A stretch of DNA of 39,717 bases from Lentibacillus juripiscarius JCM 12147 (GTDB lineage Bacteria; Bacillota; Bacilli; Bacillales_D; Amphibacillaceae). The notes under the pieces were generated by a model. That model was given only the letters and a program-made list of their open reading frames with translations. It did not search any database and was not told where the DNA came from. The translations under genes and the position numbers were made by a program. Below, one piece after another: positions 12,983-36,050 of the stretch (position 1 is the first letter of the stretch; every line of letters starts with the position of its first letter). The stretch is taken from NCBI GenBank assembly GCA_001311805.1, contig BBCA01000026.1, forward strand, positions 1 to 39,717, read 5' to 3'.

Positions 12983-13844
12983 TTATTCAAGAACACCCGC
13001 TGATGCATTTTTATTATTTTCTGCATTCAAATAGCCATCCAGTGCTTGTTGCAATGTTCCTTTCGTTTCCACATTCTGACCAAATTTTACATCTAAATCT
13101 ACCATATTCTGCACGATTTCCGGTCGTAAACCAGTAATCACAGGTTTACAGCCCATCATTGAAACTCCGTCCAGTAATCTCATAAAAGTTGAATTGCTTC
13201 CATTTCCATATCTGCAATTCCGGACAGATCCATTATTAATGTCTGTACACGCCGCCCACCGATTTCAAGCAACACTTTCTCTTCAATAATGTTTGCCCTA
13301 TTTCTGTCCATGGATCCGATTAACGGCAATATGCTTATCATTGATGTGATTGGGATAATTGGTACCGATAGATTTTCCACCAGTTTTCGCTGGTCTTCAA
13401 GCTGTTTATCTTTAAAGGAGGAATAACTGATAAAAATCCATTTAGAAACTTATCAATCAAATCATTTACTTTATTTTCCATCTGGTAGAATTCATCACGG
13501 CTGTTTATTTTTTCATTTATCTTGTCGTGTTCATAAAGAAAATCCCATAGTGTTCGGCGTATTGCCTGAATCCACTCAATTTTCAGTGCGAGAGTAAGTG
13601 AGTATTTTGCCCAGGCAATACCTTCCTGCTCTGCAAACTCCTCTACTTCCTGCTCTTTTTCATCGACAACAAACAGAACTAGTTTATGCGCATTACGCAG
13701 CAGATTAATATTCCCGATCAGCTGAATTTCCTCAATCTTACCGCGAACATTTTTCGCCTCACAAAGCAATTTGTCTTCAAAAACCTGCTTGTTGCAGGTA
13801 AGAAACTCTCGGATTGATTGATTATGTCCGTTCGTGAATTCCAA
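12983..13844 (-). CDS. RsbR-like stressosome co-antagonist with STAS domain (frame-disrupted)
   Basis: About 287 aa. The N-terminal half is helical and non-haem globin-like, as in RsbR paralogues (EWIQAIRRTLWDFLYEHDKINEK). The C-terminal STAS domain reads VENLSVPIIPITSMISILPLIGSMD, IMDLSGIADMEMEAIQLL, LLDGVSMMGCKPVITGLRPEIVQNMVDL and TKGTLQQALDGYL. Frame slips lie in T-runs at about 13425 and 13182. By eye, the residue matching the conserved phosphoacceptor Thr (usually VVDT) is Met. The probable TTG start at 13844 follows GAGGGAAG. RsbR proteins form the stressosome with RsbS and hold RsbT, but no rsb partners are nearby. It is not a usual neighbour of rimP or polC. Confidence 0.75.
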
Positions 13845-18663: not shown

Positions 18664-18703
18664 GTTTTCCCCCTGATTCTGTTCAAAAAAAGCGACCCTA
18701 ATT

Positions 18704-18742
18704 TGTGGAACCCTTGCCACGTGTGCTGGACAAGGGTTCACA
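18704..18742 (-). terminator. Hairpin upstream of polC
   Basis: Stem GAACCCTTG (18708-18716) / CAAGGGTTC (18731-18739), extended by TGTG/ACA with one bulge. A run of seven T follows only about 14 nt later on the minus strand. It may be the former terminator of the operon upstream of polC or a recognition structure. Confidence 0.45.
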
Positions 18743-18768
18743 ACGAATGCATGGTTCCTGTTATTGCG

Positions 18769-18914
18769 TGTTCAAAAAGGAGGATAAAAAGGACCGAGAA
18801 TTTCGAGGCGACGTAGTTTCGAGCAACGGAATGTATGCATAGAGATACATGAGTAGCGGAGAAACAAGTCAACGAAGAAATTCGAAGTGTCATTTTTACC
18901 GGACTTTTTGAACA
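18769..18914. repeat. Family A MITE-like repeat, full 146-bp copy
   Basis: The ends TGTTCAAAAAG and CTTTTTGAACA are inverted; over 22 bp the two ends agree at 18 positions. The interior contains GACCGAGAATTTCGAGGCGA and, near the other end, AAGAAATTCGAAGTGTCA, which are partly complementary, so the whole unit can fold. It occupies the place between rseP and polC where proS is usually found. Shorter copies are at 4804, 23491 and 33760. Confidence 0.75.
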
Positions 18915-18922
18915 ACCTTTTA

Positions 18923-20176
18923 TTAGAAAAGCCGCTGGATATCATTCCATGTCACAACAATCATCAATAGCATCAATAGCGCAAGGCCAATAAATGAACA
19001 ATTCCTTCTTTCTGCGGGTCTACAGGTTTACCCCGGACGGCCTCAATACCAACGAACAGCAAACGGCCTCCATCAAGTGCAGGTATCGGCACCAAATTGA
19101 TGATGCCCAAATTAACGCTCAAAATGGCCGTCCACATCAGAAATGATATAAACCCGGCCTGCACCACCTGGTCTGTTGCGTCATAAATTCCTACAGGACC
19201 GGAGAGCATCTCAATCGAATACTGCCCGGTTACGAGCATTCCTAAGTTGGTCAGAATCATCTTTGTCGTGTCATACGTCTTCTCAAAACCGAATTGGATG
19301 GTTCCGGCATACGATTGTTCAAATGCCCGCTGAACGCCTACTTGTCCAATGGTAATGCCCTGCCCCTCGAGTTTATCTGGTGTGACGGTCAAGGTTTCTG
19401 TGCTTCCATTACGCTTTACCGTCATATCCAGTTCTTTCCCAGGGCTATCTTTGACGATCTTGTCGAACTCATCCCATCCAGCAATGGCATTGCCTTCAAT
19501 TCTTACAATTTTATCGCCCTTCTGAAAGCCCGCTTCTTCAGCTGGACTTCCCGACACGATGCCGTCAACCAATGCTTTGTCTGACGGGACCCCCTGGATG
19601 AGGCCCACAATGAAGAAAATAACAATTGCCAATAAAAAGTTCATCATTGGCCCGGCAAATAACTGCATCGCTCTTTTGCCGGCACTTTGGAAGCAAATTG
19701 ACGGTCGTAAGGAGCAATCTGTGTTTCTTCCTCATCCATGACAAAGAAAGCCTTGCGATCAACCGAAAACCGTAACTTTTCACCCTCTTCATCCGGTTCA
19801 TACCCTTCAATGATTAGCTGGTGGTCCAGATCAGCATGTTCTACCTCAATGACTCTCGCATCCGGATGTTTGGATTTGTGGTTAACAATTATTTTTGCAC
19901 ATTATCTTCCGGGTTGAATTCAAGGCCAATATGCTGGCCTGGCTTCAGCTCAATTATTTCCGGGTCATCACCGGCAACCCGTACATATCCCCCAATCGGA
20001 AGCAGGCGAATCGTATACACGGTTTCGTTTTTGGTAAACGAAAATACTTTGGGCCCGAAACCAATGGCAAACTCACGGGCAAGCATTCCTGCCCGTTTCG
20101 CGAAAATTAAGTGGCCGAACTCGTGAATAAATACAAGCAGGCCGAACATGATGATAAACGCAATAACTGTGGTCAA
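18923..20176 (-). CDS. rseP: Site-2 protease RseP/RasP (frame-disrupted)
   Basis: Membrane zinc metalloprotease of about 417 aa that cuts anti-sigma factors and leftover signal peptides within the membrane. The first membrane segment carries the HEFGH zinc motif ([20 protein letters not shown]). Then come [12 protein letters not shown] and [14 protein letters not shown], a PDZ domain ([20 protein letters not shown]), the [14 protein letters not shown] loop and the third zinc ligand motif [14 protein letters not shown]. The C-terminus is [17 protein letters not shown]. Breaks lie near 19890, 19700 and 18990. I take TTG at 20176 as the start, since the upstream GTG sits inside GGAAGGTGG. dxr would normally precede it. 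Confidence 0.9.
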
Positions 20177-20246
20177 AAGAACCACCTTCCTTCACTTAGT
20201 GGGGTGTTTATAGTTGTCATAGGCATAACAAAACCTTTCTTCCTAT

Positions 20247-21041
20247 TTATGAGAAAAATTGGATGAAATGCAAAATCGGCAATACAAACAGTAAACTGTC
20301 CAGCCTGTCAAGAATACCTCCGTGCCCCGGCAGCAAATTCCCGGAATCCTTCACACCGTAATACCGTTTAAAGGCTGATTCTACCAAGTCTCCAATTTGG
20401 CCGAACACAGATACCAAAACGGTGACAGCAACTACAACCATCATATCATTTTGAAATGGGTGAACCATATGGAAAGAAATCCCAATGACGCAGGCCAGTA
20501 AAACACCGCCAATAGCACCCTCAACAGTCTTATTCGGGCTAATCTCAGGCCACAATTTGCGCCTGCCAAAAGCACGTCCGAAAAATAAGCGCCAGTATCC
20601 GTAGCCCAGATAACCAGAAGTACATACAGCAGGTTGGTCAATCCCTGAACATTGGTGCCCGCATCACGGGTTTCAATCAGATAGAAGAAGCCCATGCCCA
20701 CATAAATGAAAGCCAAAAGAATAAACCCTGCATCGTCAAAAGCAAATTTGTTTTTGGCCATAACCGTATATGCCAGCAGGAAGAGAACAATATCATGATG
20801 ATTTCTGATTTCCCCAGCCCTGGTAATACAGCTGCAGGGTCATTAAGCATCAATAGCCATAACAGTATGATTGCCAGCAAAACAGGAATATAATAACTGC
20901 CGATTTTCCGCATGCGGATTAGCTCTATGAATGCAATGGCTGCAAGCAGGAAAACAAAACCCGAAACGTCACACCGCCAATCAACACAAATGGAATAAAT
21001 ATAATAAATGCTAAGATTGCTGTCTGAATTCGCTGTCTCAT
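20247..21041 (-). CDS. cdsA: Phosphatidate cytidylyltransferase (frame-disrupted)
   Basis: About 264 aa, polytopic membrane enzyme making CDP-diacylglycerol from phosphatidate and CTP, the branch point for phospholipids. The N-terminus MRQRIQTAILAFIIFIPFVL and several hydrophobic segments are seen. The signature lies near the C-terminus: ISPNKTVEGAIGG, then SAFKRYYGVKDSGNLLPGHG and GILDRLDSLLF. Frame slips occur near 20955, 20780, 20715 and 20560. ATG at 21041 is preceded by AAGGTG, which overlaps the uppS stop, so the two are coupled. It ends directly before a good AGGAAGAAAGG site that now lacks its gene (see findings). Confidence 0.9.
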
Positions 21042-24677: not shown

Positions 24678-25440
24678 TTACGTATTATCTGTTTCTGATT
24701 CTGACTCTGCTTCTCCGGCAGCTACCGCCTGTTCTTCCGCTTCTGGTTCTTCTGTTTCTTCACCTTGTTTCACTTCAAGAACAGCATCCGCCATTTTGGA
24801 AGTCATCAGTTTCACCGCACGGATCGCATCGTCGTTTGCAGGGATGACATAATCAATTTCATCCGGATCGCAATTGGTGTCAACCATGGCGATAATCGGA
24901 ATGTTTAATTTATGAGCCTCCGCGATTGCAATCCGTTCTTTGCGCGGATCAATAACAAACATAGCGTCTGGCAGATTATCCATCTCTTTGATTCCACCAA
25001 GGAACTTAACGAGACGGTCTTTTTCTTTCAAGAGATCAACAACCTCTTTTTTCGGAAGCACTTCAAACGTGCCATCCTCTTCCATGCGTTCAATATCCTT
25101 CAGACGGTTAATACGCTTGCGGATTGTCTGGAAGTTTGTCAACGTGCCACCCAACCAGCGCTGGTTCACAAAAACATGCCTGAACGGGTTGCTTCATCCC
25201 GGACAGAATCCTGTGCCTGTTTCTTCGTGCCGACAAAAAGGATGGAACCACCGTTTGCAGCGATATCCCGCACGTAGTTGTAGGCTTCCTCCACCTTTTT
25301 AACCGTTTTTTGCAGGTCAATATGTAAATGCCGTTGCGCTCCGTGAAGATATATTTCTTCATCTTCGGGTTCCAGCGGCGTGTCTGGTGACCAAAATGTA
25401 CACCAGCTTCCAACAGTTGTTTCATTGAAATAACTGACAT
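24678..25440 (-). CDS. rpsB: 30S ribosomal protein S2 (frame-disrupted)
   Basis: About 254 aa. It reads [31 protein letters not shown]; then, after slips near 25317 and 25180, [42 protein letters not shown] and [30 protein letters not shown]. It ends in an unusually Glu/Ser-rich acidic tail of about 30 residues. ATG at 25440 follows AGGAGGAATATTTT. A strong promoter and a leader of about 200 nt precede it. rpsB-tsf is the normal pair. Confidence 0.95.
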
Positions 25441-25655
25441 AAAATATTCCTCCTAATGGTTTTTCCTCCGCTCAAGCTCATCTTTGCATAAACACCATTA
25501 CCGGAACAACGCTCAGCAGCTGTTCAAAGGGCTTTCCGTCCCTCGCTTTTAAAGCGTCATTACGTTTCAAAAATGGCACCAAATACACAAATCACTTGGC
25601 GTGTGTATTCCAGTGTGTTCACACAAAAAGCAAACACAGTTTTACACCAGAGATA

Positions 25656-25684
25656 AATATACCATAACTATGATAACCTATCAA
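25656..25684 (-). promoter_or_regulatory. Sigma-A promoter of rpsB
   Basis: TTGATA (25679-25684), 17-bp spacer, TATATT (25656-25661). Transcription would begin near 25649, leaving a leader of about 209 nt to the rpsB start. The leader contains a hairpin around GTGTGAACACAC. Confidence 0.8.
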
Positions 25685-25876
25685 GCATTATTATAAGCAT
25701 TGTTTTGTAATTTTATAATCAGTTCTGCTTATGGAGATGCCTGCCTATGGTGATGTGGCAGCTTCCAATGAACGGATGCGTATCGGCTTCCTGAAACATA
25801 GAAGTCCTTCAGCGGCAACTGACGCTCCCAAATAGTGATGAACGATGCCGCATTTATACGGATGATGATTAAAGAT
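25685..25876. other. Unassigned gap between fliY and the rpsB promoter
   Basis: In Bacillus this junction holds cheY, fliO to flhG, the che genes, sigD and ylxL (well over 10 kb). Here only about 190 bp remain, and I could not match any frame to those proteins. The segment 25740-25865 is GC-richer and has the look of a dispersed repeat, but no second copy is in the window. Confidence 0.5.
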
Positions 25877-26440
25877 CTACTTTAACTTCATAAGCCTGTC
25901 AGACTGGCTGATAATATCCATTACCCGAACTCCGAAACTCTCCTCAATGACAACGACTTCCCCTTTTGCAACTAATTTTTCGTTGACAAGTATATCGACT
26001 GGTTCCCCTGCCAGCTTATCCAGTTCAATAACCGAACCAGCAGACAGTTCAAGAATATTCTTAATCGTTTGCTTCGCATGGCCAAGTTCAACGGATACTT
26101 TTAGGGGTATATCCATAAGCATATCGAGATTACGTTTTTCACTTTGATTCAAACTTATCTGTTCCAGTTCAGAAAACGTTGCTTGCTGGATACTCGCATC
26201 TTTTTGATTGATATTATCGCCAATATATTGTGTGTGTTTTTCTTCTTCGTTCTGTACATTTGCTGCGCGCGCCCCTTCTTCCGCTGCAGTTTTGGACGCT
26301 GTTGTATGTTTTGTTTCAGCCGTTGTTACTGCCACTTCCGGTTCCCCGTCCTGTTCATACGTCGGCCACGTCTCTTCATCCTCTTCTCCCGCTTTCAGGA
26401 GTGCATCGATATCATCCTGGGATAACTTTCTCTCATTCAT
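25877..26440 (-). CDS. fliY: Short FliY/FliN-like flagellar switch protein lacking the CheC-like domain
   Basis: 187 aa, uninterrupted frame, about half of B. subtilis FliY (about 378 aa). Residues 5-14 ([11 protein letters not shown]) match the N-terminal segment shared with FliM. A charged linker of about 80 residues follows directly. Then comes the C-terminal SpoA/FliN domain: [66 protein letters not shown]. The middle CheC/FliY phosphatase domains are absent and the joint stays in frame. The start overlaps fliM by 8 bp. It is either a natural FliN-type variant or a deletion within a decaying operon; given the neighbours I favour deletion. Confidence 0.8.
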
Positions 26441-27427
26441 TTTCGTCTCCCCTTTTCCATTCTTTCAGCACTTGAACAGACAGCTTGTTTTTATGGGTTC
26501 CAGGCTGCACATAAAATTTCGGCCGGTCATTCACTTCCATTAATAGCGGATCCTCAATTGACTGGTGTAAAGCAATCACGTCATCACTGTCCAAAGACAG
26601 CAGCTGCTGGAGATTGATGGTCGTTTCACCGAGCAGCACTTTTGCATCCACATTTGCAAGCTGAATATTGTTCGTCAATTTTTCATATGCCTCAGGGTCC
26701 CTTTCTTTCGCTGTCGTCTGCATCCGATGGTGAACAGTTAGATTCGGGATAATCGGTTCCAGTACAAAATGCGGGATGCAAATATTAATCATACCGCTTG
26801 TTTCACCAATCGTCGTGTTAAGCGACACAACGATCACCGTTTCATTCGGTGATACCATCTGTAAAAATTGCGGGTTCACCTCAAACTCTTCCAAAACTGG
26901 GTCGATTTCACTGATGGAAGACCAGGCTTCCCGAAGATTAACAGCAGCTTTTTCAAACAGCTGTGACATCAGCATCGTTTCAATTTCCGTCAGATTCTCT
27001 ATTTTGTTAATGCTGCATCCCTTTCCGCCAAGCACCCTGTCCAGCATACCGTAGGCAACATGCGGGCTGACTTCCATCAAAACTCTTCCATCAAGCGGCC
27101 GGGCACTGTAAATGTTCAGGATGGTCATCTTCGGAACGGAGCGAATAAACTCTTCATATGGGACCTGGTCCACCGATGCAACAGAAATATCCACGTGTGT
27201 CCGCAGCTGTGCTGAAAAATACGTAGTCAATAATCGCGCATAATTTTCATGTATTTGTGTCAAGCTGCGGATTTGATCCTTTGAAAACCGCAGTGCCCGC
27301 TTAAATCATACACTCTCACTTTTTGTTCTTTTTCCTCTTGCTTCAATTCCTCGGCATCCATTTCCCCGGAAGATATGGAGGATAACAATGAATCGATCTC
27401 ATTTTGCGAAAGCACTTCATCTGCCAA
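26433..27427 (-). CDS. fliM: Flagellar motor switch protein FliM (one frameshift)
   Basis: About 331 aa, near the usual length. The N-terminal CheY-P-binding peptide [10 protein letters not shown] is present, then [16 protein letters not shown]. One T is missing at 27303-27305 before [13 protein letters not shown]. The middle domain reads [48 protein letters not shown], then [21 protein letters not shown]. The C-terminal SpoA domain runs from about residue 245. The likely TTG start at 27427 follows GGGAGG. It couples to fliY by overlap. Upstream fliL to fliH are missing, so a working switch is unlikely. The 186 bp to fliG hold nothing I recognise. Confidence 0.88.
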
Positions 27428-27613
27428 AAAGCCTTACCTCCCCATTGGTGCACTTGTATCGCGCTATTGTAAGATGATACTTATCATATAACGTCGGTGA
27501 TGGAACCATTTTATTATTCCAGCTGCACTACATCTTCCAAACGGCAGTCCCGTCTTTATTTTAGAAAGGTCTTTAATTATTTCGTTTATATATATATATG
27601 TTCATGATAAATG

Positions 27614-28619
27614 CTAGATAATGATATCATCTCCTCCGCCACGAGCGATTACGATTTCACCTATTTCTTCCAAGTAGCGGATGACACCGACAGTTTTTGT
27701 CTGTGCTTCTTCGACATCACGCAGGCGGACAGGTCCCATGTACTCCATTTCTTCCTTGAACGCCTTTTCCGTCCGCTGCGACATATTATTAAAGACAATT
27801 TCCTTCACTTCATCACTGGCAACTTTAAGGGATAAGCGGAGGTCCTCATGATCCACTTCCCGAATAACTCGCTGGATTGCACAGTTGTCAAGGACCACAA
27901 TATCCTCAAAAACAAACATCCGTTTTTGATTTCTTCTGCCAGTTCGGGGTCTTGTATTTCCAGCACATCCAGAATAGTTTTCTCTGTACTACGGTCCACC
28001 CCTTTCAACACTTCAACCACAGACTGGATACCTCCGGGCTGTGTATAATCCGCTACCGACGATGACAATTTTTGTTCCAGTGCCTGCTCCACCTGACTGA
28101 TAATTTCCGATGAAATTGAATCCATGGTGGCAATTCGTTTAGCAATTTCCGCCTGTATCTCCTGCGGAAGTTCGGATAAAATCTGACCGGACTGTTCAGG
28201 GTCAAGATACGACAAAACCAGCGCAATTGTCTGCGGGTGTTCGTTCTGGATAATATTCAGCACCTGATGTGGATTTGCTTTTCGGGCAAAGTCAAAAGGC
28301 CGCACTTGCAATGATGCGGTAAGGCGATTCATCATCCTGTCCGCCTCCTGGCCACCAAAAGCCTTAACCAGCACTGTTTTCGCATAGCTAATTCCGCCTT
28401 GCGTAATATGATCCTGTGCCAATGCAATCTGGTAAAACTCTTCAAGCACATTTTCTTTCATATCTGATTCCACTTTTTAATAGATGAAATTTCCAGACTT
28501 AGCTTTTCGATCTCTTCTTCTGTTAAATGTTCATAGACTTGTGCAGATACATCGGGACCGAGCGAAATTAACAGAATCGCTGCTTTCTGTTTTCCAGTGA
28601 GCGTTTCCTGCCGTGCCAT
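27614..28619 (-). CDS. fliG: Flagellar motor switch protein FliG (two frameshifts)
   Basis: About 335 aa, full length. The N-terminus is ARQETLTGKQKAAILLISLGPDVSAQVYEHL; middle ANPHQVLNIIQNEHPQTIALVLSYLDP with the EHPQ hub; C-terminal torque domain FVFEDIVVLDNCAIQRVIREVDHEDLRLSLK. Single A/T losses at 28474-28478 and 27924-27928 split it; both sit in runs of five. ATG at 28619 follows GGAGTGAAAGG, 14 bp after the fliF stop. Both breaks fit sequencing error, so the gene itself may be intact while its operon partners are gone. Confidence 0.9.
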
Positions 28620-28633
28620 AATCCTTTCACTCC

Positions 28634-29139
28634 TTAATCATCCGCAATCCAGCTTCTCAGCAATCTAGCAAAGTCTTCCGGATTGTCTCTGGCCATTTTT
28701 TCCAATTGTTTTTCATGGGTTATTGCTTCGGATACTACGTCTTTCTCCATTCCGGGTACTTTTTCTTCAGTTTGAGAAGGCGTGTCCACTTCCGTTACGG
28801 TTTCTGTTTCCTGATTTCGTTTCCGGCTGCGCAACAGCAGAACCGTCAGTAAATGATAATCACGAGCAATGCTGCACCTGCTGCGTATAGCCATATATGG
28901 ACTGCTGGCGGTGGAGGTGATGGTGGCCCTACCGTCTCGCTTAATATCTGGCTGACTTCCTGTAGTGATAAGTCATTGTATAAAGGAGCGAACTTAGAAT
29001 CAGCAGAAAGAAATAGAATGACCGCAAGCAGGGCAATACCTAATGCCGCGGAACCGATGAAGATTCCTTTTTGTCCTTTCGTGCGTTCAGTCCAAAAGGA
29101 AGCTGCCGTATTTTTAATTGTTAATAGTTTTTCCTTCAT
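28634..29139 (-). pseudogene. fliF: fliF relic: MS-ring protein with about two thirds deleted
   Basis: FliF is normally about 530 aa; only about 168 codons remain. Present: the N-terminal cytoplasmic part and first membrane helix (GIFIGSAALGIALLAVILFL), then FAPLYNDLSLQEVSQI. It is joined directly to the C-terminal region: Pro-rich PPSPPPPAVHIW, second membrane helix LYAAGAALLVIIILLTVLLL, and the FliG-binding tail KQLEKMARDNPEDFARLLRSWIADD. The ring-building domains between the two helices are missing, and the join stays in frame. A further one-T slip at 28851-28853 breaks the second helix. It cannot build an MS ring. Confidence 0.85.
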
Positions 29140-29218
29140 ATTTTATCCCGCCAAATTCCAAATCTTTAATGCTGACCTTTTTTACTTCATTCAAAATCTG
29201 ACTTTTAAACAGTTCCGG

Positions 29219-29514
29219 CTAAATTTGCATACGCATAGTCTCGTTATATGCATCAATGACCTTTCGCCGCACTTATACGGATGTTCCCAGTGTAATACTT
29301 GCTTTTGTGCCGTAATCATTACATTATGCAAATTATCTATCCGACCTTCATCAGCGCTTCCGTCTTTTTATCCGACATCGTTTGTGTATCATTCACGTGG
29401 TCTATGGCAGTCTGAAACCCATCTGCTGTGCCTTATGGGGTGTTACAGGCTATTTCATTAGTCCGGAGTAAGCATGGCAGGCTGTATATGTATTCCATTG
29501 ACAAGCGGATTCAT
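29219..29514 (-). pseudogene. fliE: fliE relic: basal-body protein with nonsense codon and frameshifts
   Basis: Reading across frames gives a FliE-like protein of about 97 aa: MNPLVNGIHIQPAMLTP, KAQQMGFQTAIDHVND, TQTMSDKKTEALMKVG, IDNLHNVMITAQKASITLGT, then SV-stop-VRRKVIDAYNETMRMQI. The C-terminal VRxKVIDAYxExMRMQ is diagnostic. At 29270-29272 the codon expected to be CAA or GAA is TAA, a substitution rather than an indel. At least three frame slips also occur. No good ribosome-binding site was seen. It directly precedes fliF as in Bacillus, but flgB and flgC are absent upstream. Confidence 0.7.
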
Positions 29515-29716
29515 ATCGTGTATACGAACATTTTAATTTAAATAGATTACAAAGTCTATCACGTTACGACACTTTTCAACTTATGAAAATGAATTGGTTA
29601 CAAATAACTAAGACTTTTGACTCTTTTATTTACTCATTTTTACAAAATCTTAGATGAATTTGCTTTTTTAGTTAAATGAGAAGCGGCACAATCTTTTTAA
29701 TAACGGTGAGAAATCA

Positions 29717-29752
29717 TAAAAAAACAGCTATCTGATCGGATAGCTGTTTTTT
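29717..29752 (-). terminator. Bidirectional terminator after codY
   Basis: Perfect 12-bp stem AAAACAGCTATC / GATAGCTGTTTT (29721-29732, 29739-29750) with a 6-nt loop and T-runs on both strands. It isolates codY from the flagellar relic. The rest of 29515-29716 is AT-rich and holds no gene. Confidence 0.92.
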
Positions 29753-29777
29753 AATACTACATGCAATTGTTGGTTTA

Positions 29778-30556
29778 TTATTTGGAACGAAGCTTTTCTA
29801 GCTCAACAAGAAACTTGTCATTCAATACTTTGATGTAAGTTCCTTTCATACCAAGGGAGCGTGATTCAATGACCCCAGCACTTTCCAGTTTTCTTAGCGC
29901 ATTAACGATAACGGATCTGGTAATGCCCACCCGATCAGCGATTTTACTGGCTACGAGCAATCCTTCACTGCCGTTGAGTTCTTCAAAAATGTGATCGATT
30001 GCTTCCAGTTCACTATATGACAGCGAACTGATAGCCATTTGCACGACAGCTTTGCTTCTTGCTTCCATTTCAATTTCTTCCGTTTTTTCATGCAATATTT
30101 CCATTCCTACCACAGTAGCACCATACTCGGCTAACAGCAGGTCATCATCGCTGAAGCTGTCGGACAATCTGCTTACACTAATGTTCCAAGCCGTTCACCG
30201 CCGCCAATAATCGGTGTAATTGTTGTCAGGCCGTTTTTGAACAATTCACGGTTTTCTTCCGGGAATGCCGTATACGGACTGTCAATTCCAAGGTTCGCAG
30301 TCGTTTCATTAAAATTGAACAACCCTTGTGTATATTCTTCAGGAAACTGCCTTTCTTCAAGCATCGACTTCATACGCTCATTTTCAATTTCCTGGTTAAT
30401 CGCAAATCCGAGCAGCTTCCCGCGCCGACTGACAATAAAGATATTCCCTTTAATGGCATCCCTTAAAGTTGCCGACATGTCATTGAAGTTCACTGACTTT
30501 CCAGTAGTTTTCTGCAGCATTGCATTAATTTTTCTTGCACGATCTAAAAGTTCCAT
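29778..30556 (-). CDS. codY: GTP- and branched-chain-amino-acid-sensing repressor CodY (one frameshift)
   Basis: 259 aa, the family length. The N-terminal GAF domain runs from [20 protein letters not shown] through [21 protein letters not shown] to [13 protein letters not shown]. One T is lost at about 30172 (GTGTAAGC for GTGTTAAGC). The C-terminal winged HTH is strictly conserved: [73 protein letters not shown] chose ATG 30556, which has GGAGG upstream and matches the family start. It ends the xerC-hslVU-codY operon at a strong terminator. Confidence 0.96.
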
Positions 30557-33483: not shown

Positions 33484-33510
33484 GATTTCACCCCGCTAAG
33501 CAGCGAATAA

Positions 33511-33653
33511 AGCATACCATAGATAGCAGTGAAAGGCAATAAACTTAACAAAATTGTAACAAAATTCTGAAACAAGTTCAATCCAGTCCATAAAATTAAG
33601 TAACAATTCCCGCGCCAAGCACGATTAAAACGCAGTCTGAATGCATCTGTCAA
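33511..33653 (-). promoter_or_regulatory. Three tandem sigma-A-like promoters for xerC-hslVU-codY
   Basis: P1: TTGACA (33648-33653), 18 bp, TTTAAT (33524... read at 33624-33629). P2: TTGAAC (33576-33581), 17 bp, TACAAT (33553-33558). P3: TTGCCT (33534-33539), 17 bp, TATGCT (33511-33516). All face xerC. The correct P1 -10 coordinates are 33624-33629. This compact region replaces the trmFO gene that usually precedes xerC. Confidence 0.65.
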
Positions 33654-33759
33654 GTAAATTACCTTACCGATGCGCAATTATATCGGTTTCCCCTGAAATA
33701 GTCAATAAATACGAATTGAATTATCAAAAGAGTTTTACAAGTAATCTGCTATTCGTGTG

Positions 33760-33792
33760 TGTTCACAAACGAGGATAACCGAACTTTTGACA
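33760..33792. repeat. Family A short-form repeat (33 bp, degenerate)
   Basis: TGTTCACAAACGAGGATAAC followed by CGAACTTTTGACA. It has the same join as the 35-bp copy at 23491 with a few changes. It lies between topA and the xerC promoters. Confidence 0.6.
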
Positions 33793-33858
33793 ATCTCTAT
33801 TAGCATACATTATGGTATTATTCCCCGTTCAGAAACTCTTCAAACATTTCAGCATTAG

Positions 33859-33904
33859 AAAAACTCGCCACTCGCCCGTCTTATAGCGAGTGACGAGGTT
33901 TTTC
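33859..33904. terminator. Bidirectional terminator between topA and xerC
   Basis: CTCG-c-CACTCGC pairs with GCGAGTG-a-CGAG (33864-33875, 33886-33897) and is flanked by A-runs and T-runs, giving an intrinsic terminator on either strand. It separates the topA unit from the xerC operon. Apart from this, the repeat and the promoters, the 488-bp gap 33484-33971 holds no gene. Confidence 0.8.
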
Positions 33905-33940
33905 TTATAAGGTCATCCATAATCTATAGTTTCGGACGTT

Positions 33941-33971
33941 AAAAAAAAGACCGCCAGAAGTAGCGCGGCCG
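33941..33971 (-). terminator. Terminator directly after topA
   Basis: On the minus strand GACGGCCGC and GGCGGTC can pair with one bulged G, followed by eight T. It starts at the topA stop codon. Confidence 0.6.
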
Positions 33972-36050
33972 TCAGTTACCTTCACTTTCTCTATAATCAC
34001 AATTCGTACATTGCACACGTGATTCTTTTTGTTTTCTTCTCCACCATGAATGATCCGCATTTTGGGCATGGCCTGGAAATAGGTTTATCCCATGAAACAA
34101 ATTCACACTCCGGATACCGGTCACAGCCATAAAATTTCCGGTTCTTTTTGGATTTCCTTTCCACAACATCGCCTTTTTGGCAGCTGGGGCAGGTAACACC
34201 AATTTTCTTGAGGATTGGCTTTGTGTTCCGGCATTCCGGGAAGTTGGAGCAGGCCATGAACTTACCATATCTTCCCATTTTATAAACCATTTCATGTCCG
34301 CAGTTCTCACACGTAACGCCAGCAGGTTCGTCCCGGATTTCCACTTTTTCCATTTCTTCTTCTGCTTTTTCCAGGCGTTTCGAAAATCGCCATAAAATTC
34401 ATCCAGCACTTGGACCCATTCCGCTTTTCCTTCTTCTACAGAGTCCAGATCTTCTTCCATTTTGACAGTAAAGTCAACATCAATAATTTTCGGGAAAAAT
34501 TCTTTTAGAATTTCGGTCACAATTTCGCCCAATTCCGTTGGGACAAACCGTTTATTGTCCAGCTGCACATACCCTCTACGCTGGATGGTATCCAATGTCG
34601 GAGCATACGTGGACGGCCTGCCGATCCCCTGCTCTTCCATTGTTCGGACCAGTCTTGCTTCTGTGTATCTTGGCGGTGGCTGTGTAAAATGCTGGTTTGG
34701 TGTAATTTCATTCGCTTCAATAATCATGCCTTCCGTCAATTCCGGCAAGAATTTATTTTCATCTTTTTTCTTTTTATCGTCTGTTCCTTCCACATACACT
34801 TTCATGAACCCCTTGAACTTGACTTTTGAGCCAGTTGCCCGGAATTCAACCCCATTATTTAACAAGTGTACTGTCATAGTGTCCATGACTGCAGGTGCCA
34901 TCTGACTGGCCAGGAACCGCTCCCAGATCAATTTATATAAACGAAACTGATCACGCGACAAAATTGGCTTCAGTGACTGCGGATCACGCATGACAGAGGT
35001 GGGCCTTACTGCTTCATGGGCATCTTGGGCACCTTCCTGCTGTTTTGCTTTTTTGGAAAAGCCGAGAATTTTTACCGTAGTTTTCTTCAATATAGGTTTT
35101 CGCTTCCTGTTTGGCCGTGTCGGATATACGAGTGGAATCCGTACGCATATATGTGATAAGACCAGTGATTCCGCCTGCTTTCTTGCCCAAGTCGATTCCC
35201 TCATACAATTGCTGGGCAACCATCATGGTTTTCTTCGCTCGAAAGTTCAATTTACGGGCTGCTTCCTGCTGGAGCGAAGATGTAGTAAACGGTTTGGCAG
35301 GATTACGCTTCCGTTCACGCTTATTTACCTTATCAACTGAAAATTTCTTTCCGTCCAGTTTTCCTGTAATGGCTTTTACATCGGCTTCTGATTTTAGTTC
35401 TTGTTTCTTACCGCCTACCCCATAAAATGCTCCTTCAAAAATGTTCCGAGTCCTTTTGAAAATCAGCTTCAATGGACCAATACTCTTCCGGTTTAAAATT
35501 TTGGATTTCTTTTTCCCGGTCGATAATCATTTTTACGGCGGTGGACTGGACACGTCCTGCGCTCAATCCCTTTTTAACCTTTTTTCCATAATAATGGACT
35601 TATATTGTAGCCCACAAGCCTGTCAAGTACCCGTCTTGCTTGCTGGGCATTCACTAAATCATGGTCAATCGATCTAGGGTTTTTAAATGATTCTTTAATG
35701 GCATCTTTCGTAATTTCGTTAAAAACGACACGGCATTCAGAATCTTCGTCAACATTCAATGCATATGCTAAGTGCCAGGCGATTGCCTCCCCTTCTCTAT
35801 CGGGGTCTGCTGCAAGAAAAACCTTTTTTGCCTTTTTAGCGGCTGATTTTAAGTCTTTTAAGACATCCCCTTTGCCGCGAATCGTTATATAATTCGGTTC
35901 AAATTGATTATCCGGATCAACAGCCATTCGACTTTTCGGCAAATCGCGGACATGCCCCATGGATGCTTTAACTTTGTATTTTTTTCCTAAATAACGTTCG
36001 ATCGTTTTTGCCTTTGCCGGCGATTCCACGATCACGAGATAATCTGACAT
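33972..36050 (-). CDS. topA: DNA topoisomerase I (frame-disrupted)
   Basis: About 692 aa, type IA enzyme relaxing negative supercoils. The Toprim domain starts [22 protein letters not shown] with [18 protein letters not shown] (acidic metal site). The active-site Tyr is in [14 protein letters not shown]. Later blocks are [37 protein letters not shown] and [15 protein letters not shown]. Three C-terminal zinc ribbons follow ([35 protein letters not shown]...[13 protein letters not shown]...CTNCDY). Breaks occur at about 35580, 35465, 35065, 34365 and 34030. ATG at 36050 follows GGGAGGAGAACAC. It lies between dprA and the xerC unit; trmFO, normally next, is missing. Confidence 0.95.

Follow-up and report, generated by a model that had tools for sequence, protein, structure and literature searches.

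A half-removed fla/che operon in Lentibacillus juripiscarius, probably the product of recent and stepwise loss

Loss of flagella is common, although genomes mostly capture either its beginning or its end. Among the salt-loving bacteria of the genus Lentibacillus, L. cibarius (G021) carries a complete flagellar and chemotaxis (fla/che) operon between codY and rpsB, and the operon is also present in Lentibacillus sp. CBA3610 (G001). In four other genomes of the genus (G006, which is L. jeotgali, G020, G023 and G024), FliM and FlhA were not found, codY lies next to rpsB and the loss is clean. Here, we describe the corresponding locus of Lentibacillus juripiscarius JCM 12147 on the 39,717-nucleotide contig BBCA01000026.1 (assembly GCA_001311805.1), the whole of which is referred to as the window. 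The window shares with the L. cibarius and CBA3610 operons its place, gene order, strand, leader and fliL–fliM junction, but differs from them in being about 21 kb shorter in at least five pieces, with a dead fliE gene and with FliF and FliY shortened; unlike the four genomes devoid of the operon, it keeps remnants. With good confidence, we read this locus as a fla/che operon that was recently put out of use and is being removed piecemeal, an ordinary, recent and stepwise loss. Non-motile species with partial flagellar sets, and with rotor proteins in the absence of a filament, have been described (ISME J 2025, PMC12199754). As in those species, rotor genes outlast export genes at the window locus; what differs is that the window remnant, known at this locus only, could be broken down into individual deletions and examined for constraint.

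Relatives of the window were sought with RibF, which yielded 19 loci with CBA3610 as the best (77%). The nearest of the 12 genus genomes was that of L. cibarius (PyrH 98%, FliM 86%), and its complete operon served as the comparison; the names of its genes are presumptive, assigned by gene order except where Pfam was run. The codY–rpsB interval spans about 24.7 kb in L. cibarius and 3.8 kb in the window. When the 27 L. cibarius operon proteins were used as tblastn queries against the window (E 1e-3), five (fliE, fliF, fliG, fliM and fliY) matched on the same strand and colinearly, cheY gave a sole match of 17 residues on the opposite strand, and the remaining 21 gave no match. Export and rod genes are missing at the locus, where 22 of the 27 proteins have no same-strand match. 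The survivors keep their ancestral place between codY and rpsB, their order and their strand. The missing DNA resolves into at least five separate deletions relative to L. cibarius, namely, flgB–flgC (942 bp net loss), the middle of FliF (1,092 bp), fliH to most of fliL (6,974 bp between fliG and fliL), the CheC part of FliY (591 bp) and cheY to swrB (11,351 bp). Outside the operon, no stretch between colinear blocks has a net loss of more than 451 bp (near 2.6 kb), and the next largest loss is 222 bp; all 25 non-flagellar genes that were scored have a coverage of at least 0.99, with no missing coding block.

An initial annotation, made from the sequence of the window alone, had described the interval between codY and rpsB as collapsed to fliE-fliF-fliG-fliM-fliY, with the middle of FliY lost, and had proposed a stepwise loss of motility with erosion confined to this operon. 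At this locus, the comparison with L. cibarius bears out the gene content and supports a stepwise loss confined to the operon, with five separated deletions, an inversion scar and a largest loss outside the operon that is smaller than any of the five within it. The same annotation listed flgB/flgC, fliH to fliL and everything from cheY onward as absent. This holds for same-strand matches, but the leader of flgB, the 3′ tail of fliL and an inverted piece of cheY are still in place (Table 1).

These scraps were traced at the nucleotide level. Positions 27507–27420 align with 3434661–3434747 of L. cibarius as the fliL tail, while at the fliL–fliM junction, 27521–27539 are identical to G005 at 19 of 19 positions and 27517–27541 are 88% identical to the region upstream of fliM in G022. 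In 6 of 10 relatives, blastn matches the inverted cheY piece, ~50 nt in length, with E values no higher than 1e-4, a threshold that none of 100 shuffles reached, and the lowest value is 7e-7; an earlier DNA comparison had matched it in 1 of 8 genomes, alongside a weak antisense tblastn match. Across the operon spacers, blastn against 10 relatives (E 0.05) recovered the pieces of fliL and cheY, together with a weak second place in G022, and tblastx matches were weak (E 0.002–0.009). Separately, the inverted cheY piece (25847–25864) and fliE (29266–29283) have in common an 18-nt stretch that differs at one position and in fliE includes one stop. A 19-nt form of this stretch occurs, with up to three mismatches, at three places in the window including itself, against 0.01 expected, and no exact copy was found in 75 loci.

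Table 1. Remnants of the fla/che operon and the genes flanking it, in window coordinates and in order from codY to rpsB.
Feature	Position	Strand	Description
codY, upstream flank	29778..30556	-	full length, 259 aa; tblastn 94-95% to G021; coverage 1.00; 1 frameshift near 30173, attributed to sequencing error
Intrinsic-terminator-like stem after codY	29719..29752	-	14-pair stem with a T run
Retained fla/che operon leader (upstream of flgB)	29521..29669	-	blastn 76% to G021 3423487-3423636; G021 flgB open reading frame starts at 3423685
fliE pseudogene	29222..29514	-	from the start codon; 4 frameshifts, 2 in-frame nonsense codons
fliF remnant	28637..29139	-	N-terminal stretch fused in frame to C-terminal stretch; ring-domain region almost wholly deleted; 1 frameshift near 28852
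fliG	27614..28619	-	full length; 2 frameshifts beside A5 runs; no nonsense codon
fliL 3′ tail and fliM leader	27428..27541	-	right edge of the fliH-fliL deletion
fliM	26433..27427	-	full length; 1 frameshift near 27305, absent from L. juripiscarius FliM P0123
Shortened FliY, 187 aa	25877..26440	-	IDALL-type N-terminal peptide and FliN domain; CheC part deleted in frame
Inverted cheY fragment (codons 6-22)	25832..25882	+	at the cheY-swrB deletion junction, abutting the end of fliY
rpsB, downstream flank	24678..25440	-	full length; 2 frameshifts, judged sequencing errors

The frameshifts in these remnants were set against the background of the contig. Frameshift-tolerant alignment to L. cibarius of the 25 non-flagellar genes (8,047 codons; the count leaves out infB, pnp, a polysaccharide deacetylase gene, the low-end peptidase gene and others) identified 45 frameshifts in 19 of them, or 1.86 per kb, comprising 34 losses and 11 gains (for example at 30173, 25321, 25169, 31833, 35581 and 17674). 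An A/T run of at least four lies within the surrounding 14 bases for 30 of the 45, compared with 17.5% of positions in the same genes. With rpsB, polC, topA and nusA affected as well, a frameshift by itself is no evidence of a broken fliE or fliF. No internal nonsense codon was found in the 25 genes, the single scored stop, in sucC, being its last codon. By this pattern, the background is sequencing error, not erosion, and the contig was presumably made on an indel-prone platform; such a background would mislead any pseudogene count on the contig. General genome decay was considered and rejected: all 25 genes keep their length without internal nonsense codons, the pairwise ratio of nonsynonymous to synonymous divergence (dN/dS) of 15 core genes is 0.04, and the frameshifts cluster at A/T runs.

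Disabling mutations exceed this error background in fliE; taken alone, fliG, fliM, fliF and fliY do not exceed it. The frameshift-tolerant alignment of fliE, in which G002 has no row, scores 264, against at most 27 in eight shuffles, and the lesions, four frameshifts in 102 codons plus the two nonsense codons, are unchanged under two scoring schemes. Under the same two schemes, 13 other genes (2,544 codons) have 16 or 17 frameshifts but are free of internal stops. Judged by these lesions, fliE is dead. A deletion edge inside fliE was also entertained and set aside, as the alignment recovers the gene from its start codon, with the poorly matching start still present. The two fliF pieces, fliG, fliM and the C-terminal part of FliY together hold four frameshifts in 979 codons, which is within the background. 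The frameshift in fliM is very probably a sequencing error: the intact 331-aa L. juripiscarius FliM (P0123) is 100% identical over the 276-aa open reading frame of the window, and the first 41 FliM residues, encoded in another frame of the window, agree with P0123 by eye, save for a TTG start printed as L. The initial annotation had called fliE and fliF broken, and codY and rpsB complete with their own terminator and promoter. Of the first call, fliE is borne out by its nonsense codons and fliF has lost its middle, single frameshifts proving nothing given the background. As to the second, both flanking genes are full length but frameshifted in this sequence at the level of the error background, and while a terminator-like stem does follow codY, promoter-like sites on both strands of 25400–29800 are no more frequent than chance (seven seen, 9.3 expected).

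Constraint on the surviving genes was gauged from branch-specific nonsynonymous divergence (dN) and from amino acid changes unique to one lineage. For fliG and fliM combined (nine outgroups, 200 resamplings), branch dN is 0.050 in the window and 0.019 in L. cibarius, a ratio of 2.65 (1.84–4.46); for the 15 core genes (four outgroups, 50 resamplings), it is 0.024 and 0.023, a ratio of 1.05 (0.94–1.17). Of the five genes, fliG shows the greatest acceleration, 4.45 (2.49–9.54), and its product is better conserved across relatives than the other four; the ratio for fliF is 1.93 (1.19–3.37). Unique changes were counted by parsimony, with sites represented by fewer than eight outgroup residues dropped (fewer than 12 in the branch-rate test). 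FliG, FliM, FliY and FliF together carry 80 such changes in the window and 26 in L. cibarius. Among the 54 extra changes in the window, 25 (46%) are at sites invariant in the other genomes, and such sites make up 44% of all sites. Because the extra changes fall on invariant sites in proportion to their share, the surviving genes look unconstrained. The excess is largest in FliG, with 32 changes against 5, where 15 of 211 invariant sites have changed in the window and one in L. cibarius; the corresponding numbers for FliM are 13 and 9 (5 and 4 at invariant sites).

These substitutions also bear on whether the contig could be misjoined, with an intact operon in the cell, which we regard as very unlikely. 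The many indel errors would suit such an artefact, as would a separate 303,826-bp L. juripiscarius contig that encodes the intact 331-aa FliM, the 187-aa FliY (P0001) being listed for the 39,717-bp contig only; the P0001 listing is weak evidence, since annotation may have marked the shortened gene as a pseudogene. An artefact would have to place five joins and an inverted 50-nt scar within one operon while leaving no coding block missing in 25 neighbouring genes, and joins do not make substitutions such as the fliE nonsense codons or the changes at invariant FliG sites. Moreover, the window FliM matches the separately named L. juripiscarius FliM at 100% identity, and its substitutions are therefore not read errors.

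A survey of the genus and family, in which counts are marker matches in genomes of unstated completeness, places the window among its relatives. FliM and FlhA were both matched in 8 of the 12 genus genomes, the same four being devoid of both. In those four, G006, G020, G023 and G024, codY and rpsB are separated by about 385, 450, 353 and 347 bp, respectively, and none of the 27 operon proteins found a match in the gap; flhF-like matches were found elsewhere in the stretch of G006 that was read. A second, complete flagellar cluster elsewhere in the genome, with this copy alone decaying, is extremely unlikely given zero or one FlhA match in each of the 12 genomes. In a tree of seven neighbouring genes (four of the seven for G002, and a partial rpsB for G001), the window groups with the operon-bearing L. 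cibarius, G020, which is devoid of the operon, with the operon-bearing L. persicus, and G006 with G023, each with a support of 100. If the operon was ancestral at codY–rpsB, this topology would imply at least four losses in the genus, that of the window included.

In the family sample, 149 of 159 genomes have both FlhA and FliM, 10 have neither, and none has one alone; among the 10, a flagellin match is missing in nine and a match to the window FliG in all. Judging by these counts, the half-lost state seems short-lived. Two genomes of the sample attract attention: FlhA is in two adjoining pieces at G132:C1:1506448-1508402, and FliM is in two pieces at G046:C87:443871-444447, either of which could be an early loss or the result of sequencing errors. 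A search that left the subscription literature mostly outside its reach found no publication on the motility genes of L. juripiscarius.

Several observations weigh against the view that an operon shed piecemeal has left only unconstrained remnants. The branch-rate ratios of fliM, 1.71 (1.02–2.81), and fliE, 1.86 (1.05–3.99), are only just clear, and that of fliY, 1.39 (0.95–2.21), is not clear. Pairwise dN/dS for fliG and fliM is still 0.037, so that any relaxation must be recent. Retained use could also explain why the 974 compared codons of FliG, FliM, FliY and FliF include no nonsense codon and why the deletions in FliF and FliY both preserve the frame. On the genus tree, G024 stands apart, and the nodes around G022 and G024 are weak (support 47–53).

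The foremost alternative is that a working mini rotor, composed of the shortened FliF, FliG, FliM and a FliN-like FliY, is kept by selection for a role other than swimming. What can still be read coincides exactly with the rotor set, and both in-frame deletions remove domains. In FliF, the join reads ...EVSQI-LSETVG... and the deletion removes almost the entire region in which the two Pfam domains of the L. cibarius protein lie (YscJ_FliF, 47–220, and YscJ_FliF_C, 257–398); Pfam found neither domain in the two pieces of the window. Of the last 26 residues, 24 are the same as in L. cibarius. The shortened FliF presumably retains a membrane anchor at each end as well as the tail that binds FliG. 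In FliY, the distance between matching blocks is 729 bp in L. cibarius and 138 bp in the window, the CheC matches are gone and FliMN_C alone is matched; among seven fetched proteins, two (P0054 and P0099) are FliN-like, likewise devoid of CheC, of similar length and equipped with the N-terminal motif. FliG, FliM and the FliN domain are still readable.

On account of this anatomy a kept rotor module looked likely, and the site-class test then spoke against it, with the extra changes striking invariant sites according to their share; the lack of nonsense codons and the frame-preserving deletions still count in its favour. The missing nonsense codons, set beside the two in fliE, are not significant, with 2.85 expected and a probability of none of 0.065 (or 1.73 and 0.18 when no more than 32 changes are taken as extra). 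Short as it is, fliE holds both nonsense codons, against 0.35 expected there. That FliG, the most conserved of the five, is also the most accelerated is likewise hard to square with a retained rotor. A search with a 97-aa FliF piece, at whose upper length limit a whole shortened FliF (~168 aa) would lie, recovered nothing beyond the query itself and an N-terminal piece of an ordinary FliF, and FliM without FlhA occurs in none of the 159 family genomes; by these two routes, the mini-rotor layout was not found in other lineages. On balance, we consider a selected mini rotor unlikely, and quite unlikely, too, that a stripped rotor is still made and serves, for example, as a membrane-bound scaffold or signal sink. 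A short spell of selection for open rotor frames could have followed the death of fliE.

Taken together, a model of recent, piecemeal loss emerges. The operon, complete in the sister species L. cibarius, would have been inactivated recently in the lineage of the window and would now be in the course of piecewise removal. At least five deletions, along with one small inversion, have struck it, none of comparable size being seen in the neighbouring genes examined. Motility would have been lost, and all remnants, the rotor genes included, would now drift. Inactivation may cover only the final few percent of the period that has passed since this lineage and L. cibarius separated, a rough figure obtained by setting the extra dN of about 0.03 against half of the pairwise synonymous divergence (dS) of 0.57 (core genes) or 0.94 (fliG and fliM), with dS near saturation. 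The endpoint would resemble the four relatives devoid of the operon, in which codY and rpsB lie about 347–450 bp apart. A half-erased operon with readable breakpoints, beside the complete operon of a near relative, makes a helpful example of the way in which a large operon can disappear, in this instance by several medium deletions and a small inversion and not by one excision; it also cautions that, once motility has been lost, the rotor genes left behind may for some time look functional.

Other genes of the window yielded minor observations. A gene at 13001–13844 lies between polC and rimP in both the window and L. cibarius, and its 284-aa L. cibarius counterpart has a STAS domain; no matching same-strand open reading frame was found in the CBA3610 stretch. 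In Bacillus, dxr is expected between cdsA and rseP, proS between rseP and polC, and trmFO between topA and xerC. In the window, dxr is missing between cdsA and rseP (20186–20249), proS is not at 18664–18925 and trmFO is not at 33496–33974, the latter two observations, which refer to these places only, extending to the CBA3610 stretch. We rejected these gaps as further deletions, the gene order of CBA3610 being the same without the three genes. As the 1-deoxy-D-xylulose 5-phosphate reductoisomerase family was not found in any of the four relatives searched and 3-hydroxy-3-methylglutaryl-CoA reductase was found in all four, the group may make its isoprenoids by the mevalonate route.

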